Shown piece after piece: positions 5,393-57,790 of a stretch of DNA of 57,790 bases; the stretch's first letter is position 1, and the number at the start of each line of letters is the position of its first letter. The position numbers and the translations under genes are program-made. The DNA is from Rhodopseudomonas palustris (GTDB lineage: Bacteria > Pseudomonadota > Alphaproteobacteria > Rhizobiales > Xanthobacteraceae), in the NCBI GenBank assembly GCA_016215605.1, contig JACRJB010000038.1, positions 1-57,790 of the forward strand, read 5' to 3'. Under the pieces are notes generated by a model. The model ran no database searches. It worked only from the letters and a program-made list of their open reading frames with translations, and was not told where the DNA came from.

Positions 5393-5480
5393 GTGCGGTA
5401 GCGCCTCGCGCTATCGCTGCCCTCCTTGGGCGTTTCCTCCCTAGACTTGGGCCGCTTGCCATCGCAAGCGGCCCTTTTTT
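5393..5480 (+). ncRNA. mmgR: MmgR/alpha-r8 (suhB family) trans-acting sRNA
   Basis: The sequence contains TTTCCTCCCT (5433-5442), the conserved single-stranded decamer I recall for the alpha-r8/MmgR family of alphaproteobacterial sRNAs, followed directly by a strong rho-independent terminator: a perfect 10-bp stem (5449-5458 with 5465-5474), a 6-nt loop and six Ts. Proximity to an IMPase-family gene also matches the family, named suhB in Rfam for that location. MmgR in Sinorhizobium is an Hfq-bound sRNA that limits polyhydroxybutyrate accumulation. The 5' end is inferred from the promoter; family membership is from memory of the motif. Confidence 0.8.
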
Positions 5481-5565
5481 CTTGCCGCGTGCGTTGTTCG
5501 ACGTTCGGAACGCAGCGTCGGTGCGGTGGCGAACGCAGACCGGCAGCGAGCTTCGATGCGCTCGT

Positions 5566-7173: not shown

Positions 7174-7248
7174 GGGCGCGTAGCTCAGCGGGAGAGCACC
7201 TCGTTGACATCGAGGGGGTCACAGGTTCGATCCCTGTCGCGCCCACCA
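7174..7248 (+). tRNA. tRNA-Val (anticodon GAC)
   Basis: Complete cloverleaf. Acceptor arm GGGCGCG (7174-7180) pairs with CGCGCCC (7238-7244); anticodon stem CCTCG/CGAGG encloses loop TTGACAT with anticodon GAC at 7206-7208; T-arm ACAGG-TTCGATC-CCTGT. The 3' CCA (7246-7248) is encoded. It reads GUC and, by wobble, GUU codons. Confidence 0.97.
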
Positions 7249-8423: not shown

Positions 8424-8604
8424 ATAAAGAATTGCTGCTCCGTTATCTCACATCGATGCTTGCCGGGCTACGCGGCAACGGCGCGAGCAACCAGCGTCCG
8501 AACCAACAAGCCGCTTCGCGGTTAGCGCACTTTCCGTCCTCCGCCGTCCTACGGCGGGACGCGGCTGCCTGCGCTTGGCTTCAAACATCCTCGAAGGAGA
8601 TCAC

Positions 8605-9141
8605 ATGACCGCTGATCGAAGTGCCGCAGCGATTGCGGCGATCCGTATCAACGGGGTCGACTGTCCGGTGCCCGCCGATCCGAGGATGTCGCTACTCGAT
8701 CTGCTGCGCGAGACCCTGCATCTCCACGGCACCAAGAAGGGTTGCAACCAGGGCGCCTGCGGCGCCTGCACCGTGCTGGTCGACGGCGAACGCATCGTGT
8801 CGTGCCTGTCGCTCGCCGTGCAGCACGCCGGACGCAGCGTCACCACGATCGAGGGCCTCGCCGACCAGCATGGGCTGCATCCGCTGCAGCAGGCCTTCAT
8901 CGAACATGACGGCTTTCAGTGCGGCTACTGCACGCCGGGGCAGATCTGCTCCGCCGTCGGCATGGCCGCGGAGCTCAAGCGCGGTGTGCCGAGCCACGTC
9001 ACGCAGGACCTCGCCAGCGACCATGTCGCGTTCAGTCCCGACGAAGTCCGCGAGCGGATGAGCGGCAATCTGTGCCGCTGCGGCGCGCACAACGGCATCA
9101 TCGATGCGATCAGCGAAACCTATGCGGAGGCGGCGGAATGA
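8605..9141 (+). CDS. Aldehyde oxidoreductase, 2Fe-2S subunit (PaoA/YagT-like)
   Basis: Electron-transfer subunit of a xanthine-oxidase family molybdoenzyme. 178 residues with a plant-ferredoxin-type cluster (C47, C52, C55, C67) and the second, all-helical cluster (C106, C109, C157, C159). Start ATG 8605 is preceded by AAGGAG. Unlike E. coli PaoA I see no twin-arginine leader: the protein begins directly before the ferredoxin fold, so a cytoplasmic enzyme is likely. Its stop overlaps the next start (ATGA). Confidence 0.92.
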
Positions 9142-24035: not shown

Positions 24036-26912
24036 TCAGCTAGCCGCTTCCAGTCGTTCTTCCGTCAGCAGCCGCATCGCGGCGTCGGCGTCCATCGGTT
24101 CGCCGAAGGCGAAGCCTTGGGCGTATTCGCAGCCGAGCTGATACAGCTCGACCGCGTCCGAATCCGTCTCGGCGCCTTCGGCCACCACGTCCATGCCGAG
24201 GTCGTGCGCCAGCGCGATGATCGATTTCAGGATCACCGGCCGGGTGCCGCGGCTGGTGGTGCGGACGAACGACTGGTCGATCTTGATGGTGTCGAACGGG
24301 AAGCGATGCAGATAACTCAGCGACGAGTGGCCGGTGCCGAAATCGTCGAGCGACAGCCCGGTGCCGAGTTCGCGGATCCGCGTCAGCATCTGCGCCGCGT
24401 GTTCGGGATTTTCCATCACCAGCGATTCGGTGAGCTCCAGCTTCAGCGTGCCGCGGGCGATCGAGGAGCGCGACAGCACGGTGCGGACGTCGTGGATCAG
24501 ATCGTGGCGCAGCAATTGCCGCGACGAGATGTTCACGCTGGCGAAGATCGGCTCGCGCGAGCGCATCGCACGCTGCCAGATCGCCAGCTGCTTGGCGGTC
24601 TGGTCCATCACAAACATGCCGAGCTCGACGATCAGCCCGATCTCCTCGGCGATCGAGATGAACTCGGAGGGCGACATCCGGCCGAGCTTGGGATGGTCCC
24701 AGCGCGCCAGCGCTTCGAAGCCCGCCACCGACCGATCCTCGAGCCGGACGATCGGCTGATACAGGATGGTGATTTCCTGGCGCTCGATGGCGCGGCGCAG
24801 TTCGGATTCCAGCGTCAGGCGGTCCGACTTCCGCGCCCGCATCGCCGGCTTGTAGACGTCGATGCGGTCGCCGCCGATCCGCTTACTGTGATACATCGCC
24901 AGCTCGGCGTCCTTGATGATCTCGTCGGAGAGCTGGGTCTGCGGATCGGACAGCGCGAGTCCGATCGACGCGGTGAGGAAGATCTCGCGATCGTTGAAGG
25001 CGATCGGCGCCTTGATGGTCTTGCGGATGGTCTCGGCGAAGGCGGTGATCTTGGCCGGGTCCTGCTCGGACAAAAGGATCAGCCCGAACTGGTCGCCGGC
25101 GATCCGCGCCAGCGTGTCTTGCGGCTTGAGGATGCGGGTGAGCCTTCGCGCCAGCGTCAGCAGGATGGAATCGCCGACCGCGATGCCGACGGAATCGTTG
25201 ACCTGCTTGAAGCGATCGAGATCGATCACCATCAGCGTCGGCCGCAGCGTCGGCATCGTCTTGGCGAAATTCGCCACCGCGCCGAGCCGGTCCATGAACA
25301 GCTTGCGGTTGGGCAGGCCGGTGAGATTGTCGTGCACCGAGTCGTGCAGCATCCGCTCTTCGGCGTTCTTCTGCTCGGTGACGTCGGTCAGGGTGCCGAC
25401 CACGCGGGTGACTTCGCCGTCATTGCCGACCACCGGCCGCGCCTTGAGGGCGAACCACATGAAGTGCCCGTCCGGGGTGCGCAGCCGGAAATGCTGGGTC
25501 AGCCGGCCGCGGCGCTGATCGAGCACCGAGTCGAGCGCGGCGCGAAACCGGTCCTGATCGAGCGGGTGCAGCACTTCGAGCCAGGTCGCCGCCGAGCCTT
25601 CGAGCGCGCCGCGCTTCAGCCCGAGCAGTGCCTCGGTCTCCGGGCTGGTGAACACCTTGTCGGCCGAGACGTCCCAGTCCCAGATCAGGTCGCCGGAGCC
25701 GATCAGCGCCAGCGCGCGGCGCTCGACGTCCGAGACCACGCCGCCGGTTGCGCCCGAGCCTGCGAAAGCGTGCTGCATCACGGTGAAGCCGATCAGCATC
25801 ACGATCAGCACCAGGCCGCCGAGCAGCGCCGGGCCGACGATGTCGTTGGTCACCGAGCCGGCCACCGCCATGCCCGAGGCGACGACCCAGATCACCAGCA
25901 GGAACCAGGTCGGGATCAGCAGCACCGCGCGATCGAAGCCGTGGGTCGACAGATACACGATCAAGCCGAAGCCGGCGAAGGCGATCAGCACCAGCGACAT
26001 CCGCGCGATGCCGGAGGCGACCGCCGGGTCGAACAGCGCCAGCGCCACCAGCGAGCCGAGGAAGGCGAGCCAGCCGAGCGTGATGTGCGAGTAGCGGACG
26101 TGCCAGCGACTGAGATTGAGATAGGCGAACAGGAACACCAGCAGCGTCGCGGCGAGGATGGCTTCGCCGGAGGCGCGCCACACCCGCTCGGCGCCGGCCG
26201 ACATGTCGAACACCTTGCTCCAGAAGCCGAAGTCGATGCCGATATAGACCAGCACCGCCCAGGCCAGCGCCGCCGCGGCGGGGAACATGATGCTGCCCTT
26301 GACCACGAACAGGATCGTCAGCACCAGCGCCAGCAGGCCGGAGATGCCGATCACGATGCCCTGGTACAAGGTGAAGGAGTTGACCTTGTCCTTGTAGGCC
26401 TCGGGCTCCCACAGATAGAGCTGCGGCAGCTTGTCGGTGCGCAGTTCGGCCACGAAGGTGATTACCGAGCCGGGGTCGAGCGTGACGCGGAAGATGTCCG
26501 CGGTCCCGGAATCCTGCCGCTCCGGCCGGTCGCCGGTCGAGGGCGTGATGGTGGCGATGCGCGACAGGCCGAGGTCGGGCCAGAACAGCCCGGACGACAC
26601 CATGCGATAATGCGGCGCGACGATCAGGCGGTCGAGCTGATCGTCGGTGTTGTTGGCGAGCGCGAACACCACCCAGTTCTGGCCACCCTCGCGGGCGCGG
26701 ACTTCGACGCGGCGGACGATGCCGTCATTGCCGGGCGCGGTGGAAATCTGGATGCGGTCGGTGTCGCTGCGCTGATGTTCGAGCACGCCGGTGAGGTCGA
26801 TCGCCGGCGCGTCGCTGCGGACGCTGACGGCGTCGAGCGCATGTGCCTGCGGGGCGGCCGCAATCGTCATCAAGCCCAGCGCCAGAAGCGCGAGGCATCT
26901 GATCAGACGCAA
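24036..26912 (-). CDS. Membrane PAS-GGDEF-EAL protein, probable c-di-GMP phosphodiesterase
   Basis: 958 residues: signal peptide (1-25), periplasmic domain (about 26-180, 7TMR-DISM-like), seven or so transmembrane helices (185-385), a PAS domain (395-515, with DWDVSADKVFTSP), GGDEF (525-690) and EAL (705-945). The GGDEF motif is degenerate (AGDQF at 605-609), so cyclase activity is doubtful. The EAL domain keeps its key residues: EALAR at 733, ELTES, LDDFGTGHSSL, IKIDQSFV and VAEGAE. It should hydrolyse c-di-GMP, perhaps with GTP-binding regulation by the GGDEF domain. Confidence 0.9.
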   Translation of the reverse strand: MRLIRCLALLALGLMTIAAAPQAHALDAVSVRSDAPAIDLTGVLEHQRSDTDRIQISTAPGNDGIVRRVEVRAREGGQNWVVFALANNTDDQLDRLIVAPHYRMVSSGLFWPDLGLSRIATITPSTGDRPERQDSGTADIFRVTLDPGSVITFVAELRTDKLPQLYLWEPEAYKDKVNSFTLYQGIVIGISGLLALVLTILFVVKGSIMFPAAAALAWAVLVYIGIDFGFWSKVFDMSAGAERVWRASGEAILAATLLVFLFAYLNLSRWHVRYSHITLGWLAFLGSLVALALFDPAVASGIARMSLVLIAFAGFGLIVYLSTHGFDRAVLLIPTWFLLVIWVVASGMAVAGSVTNDIVGPALLGGLVLIVMLIGFTVMQHAFAGSGATGGVVSDVERRALALIGSGDLIWDWDVSADKVFTSPETEALLGLKRGALEGSAATWLEVLHPLDQDRFRAALDSVLDQRRGRLTQHFRLRTPDGHFMWFALKARPVVGNDGEVTRVVGTLTDVTEQKNAEERMLHDSVHDNLTGLPNRKLFMDRLGAVANFAKTMPTLRPTLMVIDLDRFKQVNDSVGIAVGDSILLTLARRLTRILKPQDTLARIAGDQFGLILLSEQDPAKITAFAETIRKTIKAPIAFNDREIFLTASIGLALSDPQTQLSDEIIKDAELAMYHSKRIGGDRIDVYKPAMRARKSDRLTLESELRRAIERQEITILYQPIVRLEDRSVAGFEALARWDHPKLGRMSPSEFISIAEEIGLIVELGMFVMDQTAKQLAIWQRAMRSREPIFASVNISSRQLLRHDLIHDVRTVLSRSSIARGTLKLELTESLVMENPEHAAQMLTRIRELGTGLSLDDFGTGHSSLSYLHRFPFDTIKIDQSFVRTTSRGTRPVILKSIIALAHDLGMDVVAEGAETDSDAVELYQLGCEYAQGFAFGEPMDADAAMRLLTEERLEAAS

Positions 26913-27024: not shown

Positions 27025-28023
27025 TCAGACCGTCAACACAATTTTGCCAATATGTTGGCTGGTCTCCATCCGCCGGTGGGCATCGGCGGCCTGCTGCAGC
27101 GGGAAGGTGCCGTCGATCAGCGGCTTGATCCGGCCTTCGCTGAGCAGCGGCATCACCTTGGCTTCGATCGCCGCGACCATCGCGGCCTTGTCGGCATTGC
27201 TGCGCGGCCGCAGCGTCGAGCCGGTGTGGTGCAGCCGCTTGATCATCAGCTTGGTGAAGTTGACGGTGGCCTTGGCGCCGCCGAGGAAGGCGATCTGCAC
27301 GATCCGGCCGTCCATCGCGGCGGCGTCGTAGTTGCGCTCGATGTAGTCGCCGCCGACCATGTCGAGGATCACCTCGACGCCCTTGCCGCCGGTGGCGTCC
27401 TTCACCGCGGCGACGAAATCCTCGGTCTTGTAGTTGATCGCCCGCATCGCGCCGAGCTTGAGGCAGGCGTCGGCCTTGTCCTGCGAGCCGACGGTGGCGA
27501 TCACTTTCGAGCCGAGCGCGACCGCCAGCTGGATCGCCATCGTACCGATGCCGGACGAGCCGCCGTGCACCAGCAGGGTCTCGCCGGGCTGCAGTCCGCC
27601 GCGTTCGAACACGTTGTGCCACACCGTCATCAGGGTTTCGGCGGTGGCGCCGGCTTCGATCATCGAAAACGCCGCCGGCACGGTCATCGCCTGGGCGTCC
27701 TGCGCGATGCAATATTCGGCATAGCCGCCGCCGGCGACCAGCGACATCACCTTGTCGCCGAGCTTGTGCCGGGTCGCGCCGTCGCCGAGCGCCACCACGA
27801 CGCCCGAGATCTCCAGACCAGGCAGGTCGCTGGCGCCGGGCGGCGGCGGATAGCTGCCGGAGCGCTGTGCCACATCGGGACGGTTGACGCCCGCGGCCGC
27901 GACCTTGACCAGGATTTCACCGGGGCCCGGCGTCGGGACGGCGCGCGTCTCCGGCAGCAGAACCTCGGGGCCGCCGGGCTTGCTGATCCCGATCACGGTC
28001 ATTTGCGAAGGGACCGGTTCCAT
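27025..28023 (-). CDS. NAD(P)H quinone oxidoreductase, zinc-type alcohol dehydrogenase-like
   Basis: 332-residue MDR-superfamily protein of the PIG3/QorA-like subgroup: N-terminal GroES-like domain (VNRPDVAQRSGSYPPPPGASD) and Rossmann motif HGGSSGIGTMAIQLA. No catalytic zinc ligands are apparent, which fits the zinc-independent quinone reductase branch. The ATG at 28023 has an AAGGAC ribosome-binding site; the frame is open further upstream but without support. Confidence 0.88.
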   Translation of the reverse strand: MEPVPSQMTVIGISKPGGPEVLLPETRAVPTPGPGEILVKVAAAGVNRPDVAQRSGSYPPPPGASDLPGLEISGVVVALGDGATRHKLGDKVMSLVAGGGYAEYCIAQDAQAMTVPAAFSMIEAGATAETLMTVWHNVFERGGLQPGETLLVHGGSSGIGTMAIQLAVALGSKVIATVGSQDKADACLKLGAMRAINYKTEDFVAAVKDATGGKGVEVILDMVGGDYIERNYDAAAMDGRIVQIAFLGGAKATVNFTKLMIKRLHHTGSTLRPRSNADKAAMVAAIEAKVMPLLSEGRIKPLIDGTFPLQQAADAHRRMETSQHIGKIVLTV

Positions 28024-28325: not shown

Positions 28326-28478
28326 CGGTCCACCGAGCCGGACATCCGCCGAGCCGGACCGCGCCAACTAACAGCCGTCGCCGGCGCCCGGCGGGGCGGT
28401 TTCGCCGGCTGGCGCATGGCAAACCGTTTGTCAACGAAATCGCTCATTTACGAGCGATTAAGCTTTCCCGTGTATTAC
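28326..28478. other. Intergenic region upstream of candidate sRNA
   Basis: No coding frame is evident. CGCTCATTTACGAGCG (28441-28456) is a perfect 6-bp dyad upstream of the candidate sRNA, and TATTAC at 28473-28478 could serve as a -10 element, but no matching -35 is clear. Confidence 0.3.
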
Positions 28479-28577
28479 TCGGCTTGTCCATCTTTGGACC
28501 GAGTGGCTCCTGTCCACTCTGTTTTGACGCCTCCCTGTTATCAACTTCAAAGCCGCCGGAAACGGCGGCTCTTTTTT
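28479..28577 (+). ncRNA. Candidate trans-acting sRNA
   Basis: About 100 nt with a 5' hairpin (GTCCA 28486-28490 with TGGAC 28495-28499, loop TCTT), an unpaired CCTCCC segment (28530-28535) able to pair with Shine-Dalgarno sequences, and a strong terminator (perfect 8-bp stem AGCCGCCG/CGGCGGCT, GAAA tetraloop, CTTTTTT). No gene upstream could use this terminator except DUF1192, more than 200 bp away. Layout resembles Hfq-dependent alphaproteobacterial sRNAs such as AbcR, but I cannot assign a family. Confidence 0.55.
28551..28577 (+). terminator. Rho-independent terminator with GAAA tetraloop
   Basis: Stem 28551-28558 with 28563-28570, loop GAAA 28559-28562, then CTTTTTT. Probable 3' end of the candidate sRNA. 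Confidence 0.85.
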
Positions 28578-28753
28578 GCGCATTGTTAATCTCGTCACGG
28601 TTTCGTCACTGCCGGCGTTGATCCTTCCGCAGCAGTCGGCGTTAACCGTTGCAGACGCGCGCGCTGGACTCCCGGCGTCGCCCGCGCAATGATTTGTTCA
28701 TCATAAGCCGGCGCCTGAGCCGGCAGCGTAATCGATAGCGTGAGGCGTTAACC

Positions 28754-49936: not shown

Positions 49937-50074
49937 CATCCTTCGAGACGCCTCGCTGCGCTCGGCTCCTCAGGATGAGGCTTACGAAAGCGGCGCGGAG
50001 AGCAACCCCCCCCGCGCCCTGTCTGGATCCTCATGGTGAGGAGCGGGCGAGAGCCCGCGTCTCGAACCATGAGG
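49937..50074. repeat. Palindromic repeat, ATCCTTCGAGACG type
   Basis: Left half ATCCTTCGAGACGCC...GGCTCCTCAGGATGAGG, right half CCTCATGGTGAGGAGC...CGTCTCGAACCATGAGG. Two hairpins joined by a spacer. Same family as the copy beside the IS110-like element at 57352. Confidence 0.75.
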
Positions 50075-50095
50075 CAACGCGTAGTTATTAGCTCG

Positions 50096-57351: not shown

Positions 57352-57447
57352 GCCTCATGGTGAGGAGGCGCGTAGCGCCGTCTCGAACCATGGCCGCTTG
57401 CACGACGTGCGGCTATCCTTCGAGACGCCCGGCTTCGCCGGGCTCCT
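57352..57447. repeat. Palindromic repeat, ATCCTTCGAGACG type, adjoining IS110-like element
   Basis: Same family as 49937. The left hairpin CTCATGGTGAGGAGGCGCG...CGTCTCGAACCATG is complete; the right hairpin starts ATCCTTCGAGACGCC and reads to GGCTCCT at 57447, after which the expected CAGGATGAGG is replaced by TGTATGAGCG. Confidence 0.7.
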
Positions 57448-57492
57448 TGTATGAGCGCGACCTGCTATCCTTCATCGTTCCTTTCAGGGAAT

Positions 57493-57590
57493 GCCCCATC
57501 CCGGACGGCCATCCGGGATGGGGCGCCGGTCGTCGGATCGTTGGGCTTCCAGCCTTGTGGGCTGTTCCTGAGCAAGATCGCGATCGGCTC
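57493..57590 (+). ncRNA. Bridge-RNA-like fold upstream of the IS110 transposase
   Basis: A perfect 13-bp hairpin (57493-57505 with 57512-57524, loop CGGCCA) is followed by a stem GATCG/CGATC (57536-57540 with 57581-57585) enclosing an internal loop and an apical hairpin CAGCC-TTGTG-GGCTG (57550-57564). The loop strands are GGGCTTC (57543-57549) and TCCTGAG (57566-57572). This is the layout of a target-binding loop of IS110 bridge RNA; both strands match the neighbouring repeat. Ends of the RNA are unknown. Confidence 0.45.
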
Positions 57591-57652
57591 TTCATCAGGC
57601 CCGGATGGTTGAAGGAACTGAGGGTTCGCATCACAAGGAGGGGATGACGAAG

Positions 57653-57790
57653 ATGGCCAAGCTTAGCATGGTCTGCGCCGGCATCGACATCGGCAAATTC
57701 AAGCTCGACGCGGCGATCGAAGGCCGCAACGAGAACCTGGAAGTCGGCAACTCGCCTGACGGCTACATCGCCTTGGCCGCCTGGCTGCGC
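57653..57790 (+). CDS. IS110-family transposase, truncated by the window end
   Basis: 46 codons visible, with GIDIGKFKLDAAI, the first Asp of the DEDD RuvC-like catalytic domain. ATG 57653 follows AAGGAGG at good spacing; an ATG at 57644 would be too close. The gene continues beyond base 57790. Confidence 0.8.
   Translation, partial: MAKLSMVCAGIDIGKFKLDAAIEGRNENLEVGNSPDGYIALAAWLR

Follow-up and report, generated by a model that had tools for sequence, protein, structure and literature searches.

What interrupts a palindromic repeat at the very end of a Rhodopseudomonas palustris contig, and what could have directed the interruption to that point? The stretch of DNA analyzed here, which we call the window, has 57,790 nucleotides and is the whole of contig C14 in a 78-contig genome; all features given below lie on its forward strand. 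Close to its right end, a repeat copy (57352-57447) stops after GGGCTCCT, where the sister copy at 49964-49980 goes on with GGCTCCTCAGGATGAGG, both just as the original prediction, made from the letters alone, had described them. The contig end falls 343 bases into an element of the IS110 group. We consider it very probable that the window closes with the left part of an IS110-group insertion sequence, one that a bridge RNA guides into a single family of palindromic extragenic repeats, at their 3' foot. At the level of sequence, comparison across genomes establishes the boundaries of the element, the CT at both of its ends, a relative's uninterrupted repeat at this place, a structured RNA that is conserved, and the joint change of guides with targets and of guides with donor ends.

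Complete copies and their flanks

The window holds the left 343 of about 1165 bp of the element (57448-57790), the contig ending inside it: a noncoding left end of 205 bp (57448-57652) and, from the ATG at 57653, the first 46 codons of a DEDD recombinase gene that runs off the contig (57653-57790). Seven of the 16 genomes of the genus match these 343 bases. One of them, G005, is a single contig and carries one copy, 1165 bp long and 98% identical over the window's part. Its left junction reads CGGGCTC-CT/TGTATTAG and its right junction CTAATGGTTG/CT-CAGGATGAGG (the slash marks the element boundary), with the repeat carrying on beyond the element. A relative in G013, also of 1165 bp, lies between CTCGCAC-CT and CT-CAGGATGACGG. 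In the window's own genome (G000), two left ends (the end of C14 and the start of C31) and two right ends (the starts of C13 and C74) occupy the identical repeat position; both copies are cut by contig ends and no contig joins a left end to a right end. One right flank there is CT-CAGGATGAGG; the other, at C74, differs by one change and reads CT-CAGAATGAGG. In a further genome, G011, the first 83 bases of the element stand at five contig ends, in all five cases after ...GCCGGGCTCCT and at the same base.

Thus the left boundary at 57448 recurs in independent copies, and the right flank that was expected to continue the repeat is found in four places, namely G005, the G013 relative and the two contig starts of the own genome. 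The left part of the repeat is closed by the left target CGGGCTC (57439-57445), just before the core dinucleotide CT (57446-57447), which recurs once at the right junction. This core, put forward in the original prediction as probable, stands at both ends in G005 and G013 and at each of the four ends in the own genome.

The element also has an empty counterpart. The last gene of the window encodes a MatE transporter, and the right end on C74 runs into a gene for a TlyA-family methyltransferase. Beyond the MatE gene, sequence resembling the C74 gene's end was seen in all 13 genomes inspected (by eye; 16 matched), and this gene order is why we pair C14 with C74, given that the element is not spanned by any contig. 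In G014, an uninterrupted, orthologous copy of the repeat (locus L058) lies between these two genes. When 15 loci were searched by word, the full repeat turned up between the genes in this one of the 15 relatives only; G009 has a repeat fragment (CAGGATGAGG) at this locus, and the other 13 loci have nothing. The own genome contains 66 uninterrupted GCTCCTCAGGATGAG sites, against none for a control in which the pattern was reversed, and the copies of the repeat vary in sequence. Together, the insertions at one position of the repeat, the uninterrupted copy in G014 and the flanks in relatives bear out the earlier claim that the element targets this repeat family.

The recombinase

The window's 46-codon fragment gave no match in a Pfam search. 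The full G005 protein matches PF01548 (N-terminal DEDD RuvC domain, 72.1 bits) and PF02371 (C-terminal serine domain, 52.7 bits), both above the cut-off, and so the IS110-like identity first assigned to the fragment is supported by the complete copy. At a limit of E 0.001, a profile of three sequences picked out only the transposases of IS621 and ISCro4 among solved structures, IS621 with an E-value of 2.3e-33. The three aligned proteins all share D12, E56, D98, D101 and S236; by a reading of the motifs rather than by alignment, these residues correspond to D11, E60, D102, D105 and S241 of IS621 as these are given in PMC11208158. A PF01548 search of the own genome returned only two other IS110-type genes (C47:77860-78303 and C1:8594-9001; loci L009 and L010). 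The element further shows the long noncoding left end, the short right end (6 nt from the stop codon TAA to the element end in G005) and the match to a bridge-RNA model in the left end that are traits of the IS110 group.

A conserved RNA structure in the left end

The noncoding left end had been proposed to fold into a stem, an internal loop and an apical hairpin. The structure calculated from an alignment of 25 left ends retains these parts and sets them between two others: a 5' stem-loop (57493-57524 in the window), the target-binding stem with its internal loop and apical hairpin (57526-57587, the hairpin formed by 57551-57555 with 57559-57563), and a second, donor-binding stem-loop (57590-57652). 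Of 1090 alignment cells, 96.0% are paired, and 26 of 44 pairs show changes on both sides, a level reached in none of 500 shuffles; when the partners were slid by 1 to 3 columns as a control, pairing fell to 26-48%. The window's strand folded alone has a z-score of -2.72.

A model of the bridge RNA made with 17 elements, none of them labeled Rhodopseudomonas, matches the window at 57484-57652 with 155.5 bits (E 1.7e-34). We take this match as the predicted bridge RNA; its true 5' end is probably near 57478, because of the position of the -10 box described below. A model that includes the window gives it 169.9 bits and finds six left ends kept out of its construction (L120, L112, L118, L137, L127 and L138), at E-values from 6.5e-12 to 0.0027. 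Weak matches of the model at window positions 25021-25140, 27298-27425 and 8579-8696 and in L049 were taken as chance. At gathering thresholds, Rfam returned three RNAs in the window, with no bridge RNA among them: a BjrC1505 sRNA (28440-28578), a suhB/mmgR sRNA (5412-5489) and a tRNA (7174-7245).

Target guides change with the insertion sites

The strands proposed as guides, GGGCTTC (57543-57549) and TCCTGAG (57566-57572), and the candidate donor motif ACAAG (57633-57637), are all present at these coordinates. A scan of the collection returned 80 loci. Left flanks were taken from 45 of them, group A receiving 29 and group B 16; the other 35 were cut or unclear at the left end or were set aside. 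Group A consists of the 29 loci together with the window, G005 and G004 (32 elements). Six duplicates and one element with a short flank were dropped from group A and one duplicate from group B, leaving 25 and 15. Each RNA position was scored against the left flank of its own element and against those of the other elements, with three adjacent starts allowed and a coverage filter applied. The scans of left and right flanks were made without use of the coordinates proposed earlier.

For group A, the best of 195 columns was 57541, where the own flank scored 6.36 of 7 and the flanks of others 4.67, a difference of 1.69 with a column standard deviation of 0.22 (n = 25). For group B, the best of 166 columns fell in the corresponding loop strand, with 6.13 for own against 4.42 for other flanks. 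A scan of group A that allowed no shift was weaker and placed its best column at 57542 (0.90, standard deviation 0.19). Permutation of left guides equaled the observed fit in 0 of 100,000 trials for group A (13 guide types) and in 273 of 100,000 for group B (6 types), counts for which, as for the right guides below, guide types are treated as independent, which related elements are not. The own left target ranked first in 10 of 13 types in group A and 5 of 6 in group B, the exceptions being L077, L111 and L074 (the last ranking fourth) in A and L113 in B. We assign the left target guide to TGGGCTT (57542-57548), followed by C57549, which pairs with the first core base. Pairing of the core by all four guides is absent, as the left target guide of the window pairs with the first core base only; among the guide types of group A, the core-facing bases are CT, GA, GC, CC, CG or CA. 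A second subfamily of IS110, in which most tips are TGTGT (left ends L112-L126 and L132, from Bradyrhizobium and others), displays the same covariation of left guide and left flank.

On the right side, a shift-free scan of 196 columns in 13 elements peaked at 57566 (1.35, standard deviation 0.23), the first base of the right target guide TCCTGAG (57566-57572), the complement of CTCAGGA. With L075 and L079 misaligned, 301 of 100,000 permutations over 8 types reached the observed value. With a fixed anchor, none of 200,000 did over 13 types, the best target being taken in two types, and none of 50,000 over 12 types, either with the worst or with random representatives; L101 failed the fixed anchor and its guide was taken by eye. 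Among 22 elements scored, the right guide matched at least 6 of 7 positions in 11 and at least 5 in 19, with L075, L086 and L098 at 4.5. Both target guides of the original prediction are thus located by scans in which insertion sites and guide strands covary. For an unstudied element, target and donor guides could be deduced from the letters alone, and independent insertions then confirmed them. Relatives that have shifted to other repeats offer natural pairs of guide and target with longer right guides, useful for testing which positions of a guide matter.

Donor guides and the predicted circle junction

The two ends of the element have their own matches in the donor-binding stem-loop. The left donor guide ATGGTTG (57605-57611), which the original prediction had not named and which we identify here, matches the element's right tip in the own genome letter for letter (TAATGGTTG/CT). 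The right donor guide ATCACAAG (57630-57637), which includes the ACAAG suspected earlier, would pair discontiguously with CTTGTAT; the right donor sequence itself is the left tip of the element (57448-57454). This guide changes with the left tip across relatives. Its ACAAG or GCAAG is preceded by AT in each of the 12 elements tipped ATT and by TT in five of the seven tipped AAT, GACAAG occurs with TGTCG (L093), and AACAAG occurs with TGTTA (L097 and L101). Misfits between donor guide and tip are L081 and L111 (AAT-tipped) and L108.

A predicted -10 box, TATCCT (57466-57471), would stand 17 nt from a TTGCTT in a promoter formed only where the right and left ends are joined. Across 24 elements, similarity to TATAAT peaks at left-end offset 18 with a mean of 4.17 of 6, compared with a median of 1.08 for the means of 55 offsets. 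The bases at the handshake positions described for IS621 (PMC11208158) also fit: all 25 elements have C following the right target guide and G following the right donor guide, and the left target ends in C in 24 of them and in T in one.

Proposed mechanism and alternative explanations

On the model of the published IS621 mechanism, the element would excise as a circle, its right and left ends joining at CT and bringing the -35 box (TTGCTT) beside the -10 box of the left end. The circle would then transcribe a bridge RNA of roughly 170 nt, whose donor guides would hold the circle junction ATGGTTG-CT-TGTAT; the DEDD recombinase would exchange strands at CT, and the repeat would be split.

The second left end of the own genome raises the question of whether an element can move with a bridge RNA other than its own. 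This copy (C31:1-300, minus strand, L041) has the same repeat position as the window copy and differs from it by 2 substitutions in 300 shared bases and by a 43-nt gap that is exactly the target-binding stem-loop, the 5' stem-loop and the donor loop being kept. It could be a nonautonomous IS110 element moved in trans by the bridge RNA of a full copy, in which case target choice would be supplied in trans within the genome. The shared insertion point, the near identity and the extent of the gap speak for such a movement, but deletion after insertion explains the gap equally well and is the simplest account, an assembly fault is a possible source, and a single copy of this kind was seen. We therefore consider mobilization in trans, which would add to the explanation preferred here rather than replace it, improbable.

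A second alternative dispenses with guiding altogether: the IS110 protein, or the hairpin structure of the repeat, would provide recognition, while the RNA of the left end would regulate the transposase and its matches to the targets would be a by-product. Structure could help, since the insertion point is the 3' foot of a hairpin (score of at least 7) in 17 of 24 testable elements of group A, a score that 4.7% of 1500 control positions reach. The 17 cases are not independent, because several of the targets are related and are counted more than once. L082 fell outside this test, and the seven elements below the score are G004, L101, L108, L087, L111, L136 and L074. Regulation by RNA also has a precedent in ISPpu9, whose transposase is regulated by two small RNAs according to PMC8450116. 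Against this, both guide strands change with the targets within an otherwise conserved RNA frame, and IS621 is reported to require its bridge RNA in vitro (PMC11208160), so that we judge recognition by protein or hairpin without guiding to be very unlikely.

Finally, a decayed or recombined repeat copy without any insertion, with coincidental guide matches, an alternative that drew on the ATGAG shared by the sequence after the break and the intact repeat and to which the variation among repeat copies also lends itself, is refuted because the complete 1165-bp copy in a single-contig genome has the repeat on both flanks; G014 moreover retains the orthologous repeat uninterrupted, and TGTATGAG is seen in the window only, being absent from all 24 other dereplicated left ends, with the second copy of the own genome reading TGTATTAG.

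Relation to known elements

Insertion guided by a bridge RNA is our preferred reading, and its closest parallel is IS621 of Escherichia coli. As that element is described in PMC11208160 and PMC11208158, the two share a DEDD recombinase with PF01548 and PF02371, a CT core, a REP target, a left-end bridge RNA with 5' stem-loop, target loop and donor loop, a discontiguous right donor guide, and promoter boxes, predicted ones in the present element, so positioned that the circle junction would join them. They differ in host, in repeat and in recombinase sequence, which is distant. The right target guide pairs over 7 nt here and over 4 in IS621, and IS621 is described as pairing the core with all four guides, whereas here the left guide reaches the first core base only. 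The order of target matches, bottom-strand match first, is the IS110-type order set out for the seekRNA-guided IS1111/IS110 elements (PMC11187229), which are different elements. Highly selective insertion of IS110 elements into extragenic palindromes was described for ISPa11, ISPpu9, ISPpu10 and ISRm19 (PMC1525189) in 2006, before guide RNAs were described.

Bridge RNAs and insertion of IS110 elements into REP palindromes are published for IS621 and other IS110 elements. Neither Rhodopseudomonas nor Bradyrhizobium is named in the main text of PMC11187229 or PMC1525189. We found no report of a bridge RNA in Rhodopseudomonas in the open-access papers searched, which exclude most subscription journals and all preprints; for bridge RNA and Bradyrhizobium, the same papers gave only a review that is, by its title, on MerR regulators. 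The present case illustrates how abundant palindromic repeats become occupied by IS110 elements. We suggest that the repeat in the window may be a CGTC-type REP, and that the right targets CTAC used by several relatives belong to GTAG-tagged REPs, both types being reported from R. palustris in PMC3733652.

A few further sequences were noted in the collection and the window. The left end of L111 has its tip TTGTAATAGGCATCTGT in tandem, in two copies. In L110, a contig of a metagenome-assembled genome, the bridge-RNA region appears by eye to be duplicated in inverted form, which may be an assembly fold-back. In the window itself, a second palindromic unit (50029-50075; CTCATGGTGAGGAGC...CGTCTCGAACCATGAGG) adjoins the intact sister repeat and resembles the unit that precedes the insertion site.
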